Assembly (NCBI RefSeq): GCF_900130035.1
Contig: NZ_FQXQ01000005.1
Span: forward strand, 62,001 to 126,000
DNA from: Wenyingzhuangia marina
GTDB lineage: Bacteria; Bacteroidota; Bacteroidia; Flavobacteriales; Flavobacteriaceae
Direction of reading: 5' to 3'
Length of the DNA: 64,000 bases
Both the position numbers and the translations under genes were made by a program. Shown piece after piece: positions 9,436-12,577 of this stretch. The stretch's first letter is position 1. Every line of letters starts with the position of its first letter. Under the pieces are notes generated by a model that worked only from the letters and a program-made list of their open reading frames with translations, made no database searches and was not told where the DNA came from.

Positions 9436-10689
9436 TTACAAATTAAAAGCTTCTTTAACTTGATTTACATAATCTAACTTTTCCCAAGTAAAAGTTTCAA
9501 CTTCAATTTCTTTTCTTCCTTCGTAAGGAGATTCAAAAACTACCGTTTTAACTTCAGGAGTTCTACCCATGTGACCATAAGCAGCCGTTTCTGTATAAAT
9601 AGGGTTACGTAATTTTAATCTAGTTTCAATGGCAAATGGTCTCATGTCAAAAATAGAAGTTACTATTGCTGCAATTTGTCCATCAGTTAAATCAACTTTA
9701 CTAGTTCCATATGTGTTTACAAAAATACCCATTGGTTCTACAACTCCGATAGCATAAGAAACTTGAACTAAAATTTCAGAAGCAACACCTGCTGCCACTA
9801 AGTTTTTAGCAATATGACGTGTTGCATAAGCTGCAGAACGATCTACCTTACTAGGATCTTTTCCTGAAAATGCACCACCACCGTGAGCACCTTTACCACC
9901 ATAAGTATCAACAATAATTTTACGACCTGTTAAACCAGCATCTCCATGAGGACCTCCAATTACGAATTTTCCTGTTGGGTTGATGTGAAATTTAATATCA
10001 TCTCCAAATAAATCTTGAACCTCTTGGTTAAAAGTTGCTTTTACTCTAGGGATTAAAATATTGATAATATCAGATTTGATTTTGGCTAACATGGTTTCAT
10101 CTTCATCAAAATCATCATGTTGTGTAGAAACTACTATCGCATCAATACGTTCAGGTTTGTTGTCATCAGAATATTGTAAGGTAACTTGCGCTTTTGCATC
10201 TGGACGTAAATAAGTGATGTCTTTCATTTCTCTACGCAAAGCAGCCAATTCTTTTAATAAACGATGAGAAATTTCTAAAGCCAATGGCATAAAGTTCTCA
10301 GTTTCGTTAGTTGCATAACCAAACATCATTCCTTGGTCACCAGCTCCTTGTTCTTCTTTACTAGCTCTATCAACTCCTTGATTGATGTCTTGAGATTGTT
10401 CGTGAATGGCAGATAAAACACCACATGAATTTCCATCAAATTGATATTCCCCTTTGGTATATCCTATTTTATTAATGGTGTCACGAGCTATTTGTTGTAC
10501 ATCTAAATACGCTTTAGATTTTACCTCTCCAGCCAATACTACTTGACCCGTAGTAACTAAAGTTTCACATGCTACTTTAGAATCAGCATCATAAGCCAAA
10601 AAATGATCAATCAATGCATCAGAAATTTGATCTGCAATTTTATCAGGATGTCCTTCTGAAACTGACTCCGATGTAAATAAATATGACAT
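9436..10689 (-). CDS. metK: S-adenosylmethionine synthase (methionine adenosyltransferase)
   Basis: A 417-residue cytosolic enzyme making SAM from methionine and ATP. It has the N-terminal [20 protein letters not shown] metal and methionine-binding signature, the [12 protein letters not shown] motif near residue 117, and the [16 protein letters not shown] phosphate-binding loop near residue 272. Length is slightly above the E. coli enzyme, as usual for Bacteroidota. The gene stands alone between its own terminator and a structured 5' leader (10690-10868) that resembles a SAM-II riboswitch, which would give feedback control by the product. It is divergent from metY. Confidence 0.97.
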
Positions 10690-10739
10690 ATCTATTTGTG
10701 TTTTTTATTAAATGTTTATTTTGCTGAGTGCCTTGGTCG

Positions 10740-10769
10740 GCTAAAGAAGTAGATAATTACTGCTTTAGC
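10740..10769 (-). promoter_or_regulatory. Hairpin competing with the metK leader aptamer
   Basis: On the minus strand GCTAAAG (10763-10769) can pair perfectly with CTTTAGC (10740-10746), extended by AGTA/TACT (10758-10761 with 10748-10751). The 5' arm is exactly the conserved GCTAAAG-CAGT segment needed for the proposed SAM-II pseudoknot, so the two folds exclude each other. This is the arrangement expected of an expression platform. It lies about 50-80 nt before the metK start. Confidence 0.5.
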
Positions 10770-10862
10770 TCTTTATTTTTTACAGTTGCTTATGGAATAC
10801 TTTACTAATAGTATATTGTAAACTGTAAAAGAGGTGGCAATCAGTCAAATCTTTCCCCTTTT
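10759..10862 (-). ncRNA. Candidate SAM-II-like riboswitch in the metK leader, with an inserted hairpin
   Basis: Read on the minus strand, the leader has P1 AAAAGGGG (10855-10862) pairing with CCTCTTTT (10827-10834), enclosing GATTTG-ACTG-ATTGC (10837-10851). A tail ATAAAGAGCTAAAG-CAGT (10759-10776) follows. ACTG can pair with CAGT to form the pseudoknot, in the same register as known SAM-II RNAs, where GAUUUG, UUGC and GCUAAAG are the conserved ligand-site blocks. Between P1 and the tail is an extra hairpin closed by ACAGTT/AACTGT (10782-10787 with 10821-10826). A possible -7 box (TAATTTTG, 10869-10876) lies just upstream. The second pseudoknot helix (P2a) is weak here, so the class call is provisional. 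Confidence 0.5.
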
Positions 10863-10963
10863 GTGGGGCAAAATTATAAAAAAGAAATGGAATACCCTCT
10901 TTAATAAATCTAATCTTTTTTTTGAATTTAATAATAAGGGATATAATCTGAGTTTAGGTTTTA

Positions 10964-10971
10964 TATATTTG
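10964..10971 (+). promoter_or_regulatory. Possible -7 promoter element for metY
   Basis: TATATTTG matches the Bacteroidota -7 consensus TAnnTTTG and would give a leader of about 30 nt before the metY ATG at 11007. No good -33 element is seen 19-21 bp upstream. No riboswitch-like structure fits in this short leader. Confidence 0.35.
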
Positions 10972-11006
10972 TTGGTTAAATGACTAGAAATTAATAAAAA
11001 ATAAAA

Positions 11007-12281
11007 ATGGAAAATCAAAGATTAGAAACTTCGGCATTACATGCTGGACATGATGTAAGTAATACGCAAGGAACAAGAGCGGTACCTATTTATCAAACCT
11101 CTTCTTATGTATTTAATAATACTGAGCATGCTGCAAACTTATTTGGATTAAAAGAATTAGGATTTATTTATACGAGATTAAATAATCCAACCAATCAGAT
11201 TTTACAAGATCGTTTGGCTGCTGTAGAAGGAGGAATTGGAGCAGTGGTTTTTGCTTCGGGAACTTCTGCAATTGCAACAGGATTGATGACTTTGTTAAAA
11301 GCAGGAGATCACATTGTGGCTTCTAGCAGTTTATATGGAGGAACATTTACCTTGTTAAATGTTACGTTGCCAAGATTAGGAATTACTACTACGTTTGTAG
11401 ACGCATCAAACCCAGAAGAGTTTAAAGCTGCAGTACAAGACAATACACGTGCATTTTTTGTAGAATCTTTAGGAAATCCAAAATTAGATGTGTTGGATTT
11501 AGAAGCGATTGCTGAACAAGCAAAAGCTGCTGAAGTGCCTTTTATTGTTGATAATACAGTAGCATCACCGGCATTGTTAAATCCAATTAAACACGGGGCT
11601 AACTTGGTGATTCATTCTTTAACAAAATATATTGGAGGACAAGGAAATTCTTTAGGAGGAGCTATTGTTGATGCTGGAACTTTTAACTGGGCTAATGGAA
11701 AATTTCCTGAATTTACAGAACCGTCAGCTGGTTATCACGGATTGGTTTATCATGAAGCATTAGGAGCAGCAGCTTTTACTTTTAAATTAATTTTAGAAGG
11801 ATTGCGTGATTTTGGTGGAGCTTTAAGTCCAACAAACGCATTTAATATTATTCAAGGATTAGAAACTTTACCAGTAAGAATTAAACAACATTCTGCAAAT
11901 GCATTAGAATTGGCGACTTGGTTGGAAGAGAGAGAAGAGGTTGCTTGGGTAAATTATCCAGGATTAAAATCTAGTAAGTATCATGATTTGGCTAAAAAAT
12001 ATTTGCCAAACGGACAAAGTGGATTGTTAACTTTTGGTTTAAAAGGAGGTTACGAAGCAGCTAAGAAATTTACAGATGCTACAGAAATTTTTTCTTTATT
12101 GGCAAATATCGGAGATACAAAATCATTGATTATTCACCCAGCAAGTACTACACATCAACAATTGAGTGAAGCAGATCAGGCAGGGGCTGGAGTTACTCAA
12201 GATTTAATTCGTTTGTCTGTAGGTTTAGAAAATATAGAAGATTTAAAAGCAGACATTGTACAAGCTTTTAGTAAATTGTAA
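11007..12281 (+). CDS. metY: O-acetylhomoserine sulfhydrylase (aminocarboxypropyltransferase)
   Basis: A 424-residue PLP enzyme of the Cys/Met metabolism family that makes homocysteine from O-acetylhomoserine and sulfide. The PLP lysine is in HSLTKYIGGQGNSLGG (near residue 207), the phosphate-binding region FASGTSAIATGLMTLL is near residue 88, and the C-terminus has the family GDTKSLIIHPASTTHQQL segment. The 424-residue length is typical of MetY, longer than MetB/MetZ (about 390). It is followed by its own terminator and precedes the riboswitch-controlled metX operon. A second, MetZ-like sulfhydrylase is present at 17463. Confidence 0.92.
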   Translation: MENQRLETSALHAGHDVSNTQGTRAVPIYQTSSYVFNNTEHAANLFGLKELGFIYTRLNNPTNQILQDRLAAVEGGIGAVVFASGTSAIATGLMTLLKAGDHIVASSSLYGGTFTLLNVTLPRLGITTTFVDASNPEEFKAAVQDNTRAFFVESLGNPKLDVLDLEAIAEQAKAAEVPFIVDNTVASPALLNPIKHGANLVIHSLTKYIGGQGNSLGGAIVDAGTFNWANGKFPEFTEPSAGYHGLVYHEALGAAAFTFKLILEGLRDFGGALSPTNAFNIIQGLETLPVRIKQHSANALELATWLEEREEVAWVNYPGLKSSKYHDLAKKYLPNGQSGLLTFGLKGGYEAAKKFTDATEIFSLLANIGDTKSLIIHPASTTHQQLSEADQAGAGVTQDLIRLSVGLENIEDLKADIVQAFSKL

Positions 12282-12389: not shown

Positions 12390-12415
12390 CCCCAGCTCAT
12401 TATGTATTGAAGTAA

Positions 12416-12523
12416 GTTATCATGAAAGGTAGAGGGAATAGACCCGTTGAAGCCTTAGCAACCCTTTTTTAGTTTCTAAAAATGAAGGTGCTACGTTCTA
12501 CCAACATTAGTTGGATAGATAAC
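12416..12523 (+). ncRNA. SAM-I (S-box) riboswitch
   Basis: The segment follows the S-box consensus closely: GTTATCA then GAaAGGTaGAGGGA, CCCGtTGAAgCC, GCAACC, AAGGTGCtA, TTCTACC and a closing GATAAC. P1 is GTTATC (12416-12421) with GATAAC (12518-12523). P3 pairs CCTTTTTTAG (12463-12472) with CTAAAAATGAAGG (12476-12488), and P4 is CCAAC/GTTGG just before the closing strand. It lies upstream of metX, where SAM binding would lower expression of methionine synthesis. No U-tract terminator follows, so control is probably at translation. Confidence 0.93.
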
Positions 12524-12577
12524 ACAGGAGCAATTCTCTTAAAAAAATCACGATAACTTAACAACACACCGCATATT

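Follow-up and report, generated by a model that had tools for sequence, protein, structure and literature searches.

In Wenyingzhuangia marina, the leader of metK, the gene coding for SAM synthetase, raises the question of what kind of RNA precedes this gene and which downstream strands could convert SAM binding into a change of its expression. The stretch of DNA analysed here, hereafter the window, comprises 64,000 nucleotides of contig NZ_FQXQ01000005.1 (positions 62,001 to 126,000; all coordinates below are counted within the window), and the leader occupies its minus strand from 10876 to 10690, as read from the sequence. An earlier note on this DNA described there SAM-II-like blocks, an inserted hairpin, and a built-in competitor strand; the features considered in this work are collected in Table 1.

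Table 1. Features of the metK locus of W. marina discussed in the text
Feature	Position in the window	Strand	Basis
SAM-II riboswitch aptamer, whole Rfam match	10755..10864	-	RF01726, 45.5 bits, cut-off 44, positions 1-60 of 60
P1 5' strand AAAAGGGG	10855..10862	-	Sequence read, genus alignment
P1 3' strand CCTCTTTT	10827..10834	-	Sequence read, genus alignment
Conserved core GATTTGACTGATTGC, holds ACTG pseudoknot strand (10845-10842)	10837..10851	-	Sequence, Rfam alignment
Aptamer tail GCTAAAGCAGT, holds CAGT pseudoknot strand (10762-10759)	10759..10769	-	Sequence, Rfam and genus alignment
Inserted hairpin, arms TTTTACAGTT / AACTGTAAAA (10830-10821 / 10787-10778)	10778..10830	-	Genus alignment
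Anti-tail strand TACTTCTTTAGC, pairs with GCTAAAG.AGTA	10740..10751	-	Duplex energy, genus alignment
Anti-core strand GGCACTCAG, pairs with CTGATTGCC (10844-10836), one mismatch	10724..10732	-	Energy, covariation
Promoter -7 box TAATTTTG, TAnnTTTG type	10869..10876	-	Sequence read and box counts in leaders
metK, methionine adenosyltransferase (SAM synthetase), 417 aa	9436..10689	-	TIGR01034, 508.5 bits, cut-off 309.4

The SAM-II Aptamer in Front of metK

The likeness to SAM-II RNAs claimed in the earlier note is borne out by the Rfam model of this class: the match is beyond chance (E 1.8e-05; whole window, both strands, 4227 families), with a narrow margin over the cut-off, and it is the sole Rfam match up to E 1 within 10600-11050. 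The P1 strands, the core, the pseudoknot, the tail, the inserted hairpin, and the CTTTAGC motif were all read at the positions given earlier. The P1 stem around the core counts eight pairs in the window, and 93.8% of its cells are paired in six genus members; a single pair changes from G-U to A-U, and the outer two A-U pairs are formed in 4/6 and 5/6 of the aligned members. The inserted hairpin, which shares part of its 5' arm with the P1 3' strand, displays two-sided changes in two of its ten pairs, with 86.7% of the cells paired in the same six members. The P2 pseudoknot ACTG/CAGT is present in all six without any variation. Of the helices in which covariation among relatives had been envisaged, P1 offers one varying pair, while ACTG/CAGT and GCTAAAG/CTTTAGC (GCTAAAG being 10769-10763 of the tail) are invariant in the genus.

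The suggestion that the element could be a divergent SAM-II variant with an unusual insert is not supported. The letters of the core and the tail agree with the RF01726 consensus, and the alignment, which covers all 60 model positions, departs mainly by a 50-nt insertion between P1 and the tail. Long insertions are common in the family: the core-to-tail spacing amounts to at least 25 bases in 98 of the 153 metK leaders compared (range 6 to 117, the value of 6 in L015 reflecting a second GCTAA near the true tail). In L015 and L133, the tail start is partly duplicated (GCTAAAAAATGCTAAAG). Judging from its sequence, the window element is an ordinary member of SAM-II, a known class.

Transcription of the leader is predicted to begin near 10864, where the Rfam match starts. 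This prediction combines the position of the TAnnTTTG box (10876-10869) with the spacing in Flavobacterium psychrophilum, where, in the part of the report considered, such a box spans -12 to -5 (PMC9723704). In 144/153 leaders, a box of this type lies in the 60 nt preceding the core, vs. 8.4 expected from mononucleotide shuffles. A start downstream of 10837, which the earlier note had named as one case against its reading, is therefore unlikely. Overall, a SAM-II feedback riboswitch acting on SAM synthesis itself, as proposed earlier, is supported by the Rfam match, by the gene behind it (metK according to TIGR01034), and by conservation.

Distribution of the Aptamer and the Leader Sample

RF01726 was detected in 52 of 60 relatives and in six of the seven genus members, the seventh (G004, leader L179) possessing the aptamer by sequence. 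Of 397 genomes sampled within the family of the window, 373 have it (358 of them above the cut-off), as do 38 of 247 sampled within the phylum. The leaders compared below come from 156 loci, a non-random sample made of the best matches among the relatives and in the family, of loci from the genus, and of 90 genomes chosen for weaker matches; the window's own copy (L036) is included. The gene behind the aptamer is metK in 153 of these loci and metY in two (L003, L055), and in one (L044) no gene was matched by the four query proteins.

Eight genomes without an Rfam match, G004 among them, were inspected, and seven of the eight have metK. In L182 and L183, metK leaders from two species of one genus, the SAM-II copies look decayed, with ACTTCC and GTCAAATC kept in the linker. 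In the metK leaders L180, L181, L184, and L185, no SAM-II aptamer was seen by eye. In two of them, L180 and L181, metK is preceded by GACCAAG and by the inverted repeat TGTAAT / ATTACA, possibly belonging to another regulator. In the window, GACCAAG lies at 10738-10732 (-), between the anti-tail and the anti-core; it is present in 6/6 aligned genus members and recurs in some other leaders.

Two Linker Strands Complementary to the Aptamer

The competitor proposed earlier, CTTTAGC (10746-10740 on the minus strand), extends further upstream, to the whole anti-tail strand. The energy of each duplex was set, leader by leader, against 100 dinucleotide shuffles of the linker of that leader. In the window, the tail pairs with the linker at -11.4 kcal/mol, a value reached by none of the 100 shuffles, and all 11 tail:anti-tail pairs are present in 6/6 genus members, none varying. 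Over the 153 metK leaders, 33 have a tail:linker duplex equalled by at most 5 of 100 shuffles (mean z -1.0); the stretches which, on side-by-side reading, recur opposite the tail are ACTTCTTTAG or ACTTCCTT. Covariation of the tail with the anti-tail was considered and set aside. An association is seen, since CCTT or CCTG follows downstream in 58/58 long tails starting with GCTAAAGG vs. 24/73 starting with GCTAAAGC (Fisher p 5e-18, uncorrected for ancestry), yet the energy swap test over 13 tail types gave no signal, with 913 of 2000 permutations as low for the type mean and 341 of 2000 for the leader mean (ancestry being ignored in these permutations as in those of the cores below). Thus, the built-in competitor stands as a feature of the sequence conserved in the genus, without backing from the swap test over the 153 leaders.

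A second strand, the anti-core, lies just outside the coordinates of the earlier note and is absent from it. In the window, the core pairs with the linker over a longer stretch at -14.7 kcal/mol (0/100 shuffles). Of the window leaders, 28 have 80 nt of free upstream sequence; each of the two energies is attained by one of them, presumably that of metK itself. The core:linker duplex is equalled by at most 5 of 100 shuffles in 116/153 leaders (mean z -2.9), the other 37 having no anti-core pairing beyond the shuffles; the stretches recurring in the linkers opposite the core are GTCAAATC or GCAATC(AG). Within the genus, six of the nine core:anti-core pairs never vary and three are broken in some of the six members, one of them in 3/6; two-sided changes were found in neither competitor helix of this alignment.

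The core is identical in 105/153 leaders, so the information on covariation sits in the remaining ones. A comparison of each own core with the consensus core (18 better, 30 worse; n=48) was discarded as unfair, because cores carrying an additional base had been trimmed by one base too many and the consensus is G-initial while many cores begin with A; it was replaced by single-base swaps and a permutation of whole cores. For the G7 cores, 8/8 linkers pair better, by 4.2-7.2 kcal/mol, with the real core than with its A7 copy. These leaders (L014, L016, L025, L028, L072, L078, L083, L089) stem from several genera, though they need not all be independent events. The single-base swap of the T7 cores (n=11) yielded 7 better, 1 same, and 3 worse. 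In the 114 leaders with a plain A7 core, G in place of A7 resulted in 15 better, 3 same, and 96 worse, and T in its place, in 13 better, 5 same, and 96 worse. The cores with an extra base are accompanied by GTCRR in 1/23 vs. 80/130 of the others (Fisher p 2e-7) and by GCAAT in 15/23 vs. 24/130 (Fisher p 1e-5), both values being uncorrected for ancestry. When the 19 core types were permuted over the linkers, the type-mean residual was -1.72 vs. 0.00 (sd 0.37), and none of the 2000 permutations was as low. Judged by these sequence comparisons, core and linker types go together.

A result against the anti-core comes from 23 further metK loci (L157-L179): two (L173, L178) were missed by the search pattern, and only 8 of the remaining 21 are at 5 of 100 shuffles or fewer. 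Nine similar leaders of this set, with AGCAATT or CGCAATT, are at 5 to 20 of 100. The two SAM-II copies in front of metY (L003, L055) carry the GTCAAATC anti-core, equalled by 0 and 4 of 100 shuffles, respectively; L044 is at 36 of 100. Overall, the anti-core appears better supported by the sequences than the tail competitor, and it looks like an expression platform for which no description was found in the literature searched.

Predicted Folding and Proposed Mode of Action

The ligand-free fold predicted for the window leader is a three-way junction (-49.8 kcal/mol), whose two inner arms, the inserted hairpin and the tail:anti-tail hairpin, are closed off by the core:anti-core helix; L035 folds likewise. 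Such a junction uses both the core and the tail and hence excludes the aptamer. Among the free folds of the 153 leaders, 139 contain at least five core:linker pairs, 107 at least four tail:linker pairs, and 100 both. Both pairings are present in four of the six genus members (L032, L033, L035, and the window), the others being L031 and L034, and the free fold of L125 contains only the tail pairing. The SAM-bound state was represented by the downstream part folded alone, the pseudoknot itself being ignored; compared with the free fold, this bound-like state leaves more of the linker unpaired in 143/153 leaders (0.556 vs. 0.374). Whether free or bound-like, the window leader is also predicted to form a hairpin, AAATAGATAT / ATATTTATTT at 10697-10675 (-), around the start codon of metK.

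Given the pathway and the behaviour of other SAM switches, feedback control of metK is expected to be OFF with SAM. Taken together, the leader is probably a SAM-II riboswitch lowering metK expression when SAM is plentiful, with the anti-tail and anti-core strands, the junction, and the freed linker as its working parts. Without SAM, the leader would refold into the three-way junction, and the aptamer would be excluded. Only about 35 nt would be transcribed from the aptamer end (10759) to the anti-core end (10724), which would leave SAM little time to prevail. Once SAM is bound, the linker would stay single-stranded.

Candidate Output Steps and Alternative Readings

How riboswitches act is less clear in a phylum whose ribosomes ignore Shine-Dalgarno sites (PMC9976891, in the part considered). 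Members of this phylum are described, in the sections of two reports taken into account, as having no such sites (PMC6847099, PMC9976891), so the masking of one is unlikely. An intrinsic terminator was rejected as the output: no T run was read behind the anti-tail hairpin in the window, and six or more Ts occur in only 22/153 linkers, while 40/153 have at least five no farther than 55 nt from the tail.

The linker contains 20.3% C and 10.4% G, with C exceeding G in 151/153 leaders; in 28 leaders of other window genes, C and G are equal, C prevailing in 14 of them. Part of the excess is a consequence of the linker being complementary to the core; C prevails over G also before the anti-core (117/153) and after it (114/153). 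Such a linker fits Rho loading, short of proof. Since the freed linker is C-rich and G-poor, Rho loading on it would, tentatively, be the foremost OFF step; a block of translation start would come close behind, each of the two being less likely than not, and the rest is left to other steps.

A translational switch, in which the linker freed by SAM pairs before the metK start codon and blocks ribosome entry without a Shine-Dalgarno site, seems unlikely as the general explanation. The pairing of the linker with the region before the AUG is equalled by at most 5 of 100 shuffles in 30/153 leaders, often as GTTGCTTT/AAAGCAAC next to the start codon, and in Flavobacterium johnsoniae translation is tuned by structure near the start codon, according to the part of PMC6847099 considered. 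In the window, this pairing is equalled by 17/100 shuffles, and the start region is as open in the bound-like state (0.57) as in the free one (0.58). The 153 leaders average 0.574 bound-like vs. 0.529 free, openness being lower when bound in only 57. Occlusion of the start codon was accordingly rejected as the general output, for the start region does not close in the bound-like folds. Still, the 30 linkers pairing with the start region beyond shuffles suggest that more than one output may exist among the leaders. In L018, L045, L057, and similar leaders, GTTGCTTT follows the tail and AAAGCAAC directly precedes the start codon, a repeat which could close the start region.

A plain SAM-II riboswitch, in which the complementarity of the linker plays no role and control is exerted by other means, is improbable. 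It would agree with the 37/153 leaders lacking an anti-core beyond shuffles, with the null result of the tail swap, and with other phyla, which use terminators or ribosome-site masking (PMC1273637, PMC2258182, PMC9373788, in the parts considered). Against it stand the joint occurrence of core and linker types and the 116/153 leaders that beat their shuffles. Even less probable is the preservation of the linker motif for another reason, e.g., as a site for an RNA-binding protein or a small RNA, or as a ribosome standby site. The persistence of ACTTCC and GTCAAATC beside the decayed-looking core of L183 speaks for such a role, as does the recurrence of GACCAAG in linkers and in the SAM-II-less L180 and L181; it is countered by the core changes matched in the linker and by the motif also standing behind the aptamer of the metY leaders. 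That the RNA is a divergent, SAM-II-like one with another ligand or another mode is highly improbable: the score ranks low within the family (45.5 bits vs. up to 80.8 in relatives), but the core and tail letters are consensus-like, the alignment differs mainly by the insertion, and the gene behind the aptamer is the same as in the high-scoring relatives.

The preferred reading, the SAM-II switch with a competing junction and a freed linker, can be extended, on the ground that the same module also follows the metY aptamer. The anti-tail and the anti-core would then constitute a two-strand anti-aptamer module which covaries with the core, forms the three-way junction, and controls genes with neither a Shine-Dalgarno site nor an intrinsic terminator involved, most simply by concealing or uncovering a Rho-loading linker. 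That this module is a general, Shine-Dalgarno-independent flavobacterial platform is a speculative and rather doubtful extension.

Comparison with Known Systems

A second SAM sensor is present in the window. The SAM-I riboswitch (RF00162, 74.7 bits), which shares the ligand but has a different fold, lies at 12414-12525 (+), about 1.6 kb from the SAM-II element and on the opposite strand, between the genes for O-acetylhomoserine sulfhydrylase and a metX-like protein. Both classes occur together in 42/60 relatives, and a survey of 2007, in the part considered, listed no species with both (PMC2258182).

Among the closest known systems is SAM-II with long loops (RF01726; Weinberg et al. 2010, PMC2864571), which, as far as the part of that report considered goes, shares with the window element the sequence, the P1 and pseudoknot blocks, the long insert, and the phylum (Bacteroidetes, marine). 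The window has the 50-nt insertion between P1 and the tail in a member of Bacteroidetes, and the 98 widely spaced leaders conform to the same type. The Rfam model stops at the tail, after 60 positions, leaving the linker strands outside. The anti-tail and anti-core strands are absent from the parts considered of PMC2864571, PMC2258182, PMC9373788, PMC6847099, PMC12121620, PMC1273637, PMC9723704, PMC7366714, and PMC9976891; an earlier mention is possible in the additional file of PMC2864571, where its SAM-II details are given. Likewise, no description of the SAM-II output step in this group was found in the literature searched, as represented by parts of its sources. The sensor is already known; the anti-core looks like a platform of which the literature searched gave no account.

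The SAM-II riboswitches of alpha-proteobacteria, including that of metA, belong to the same aptamer class (PMC1273637, PMC2258182, PMC9373788, in the parts considered), and the metA riboswitch of S. meliloti likewise controls a start codon located far downstream (74 nt). They use intrinsic terminators or Shine-Dalgarno access, neither of which is evident in the window. Unlike them, the window element has an anti-core which pairs with the SAM-binding core itself. This strand is a concrete, mutable part for which nature supplies matching changes (C where the core has G7, and A for some of the T7 cores), and many species carry it in front of their SAM synthesis gene.
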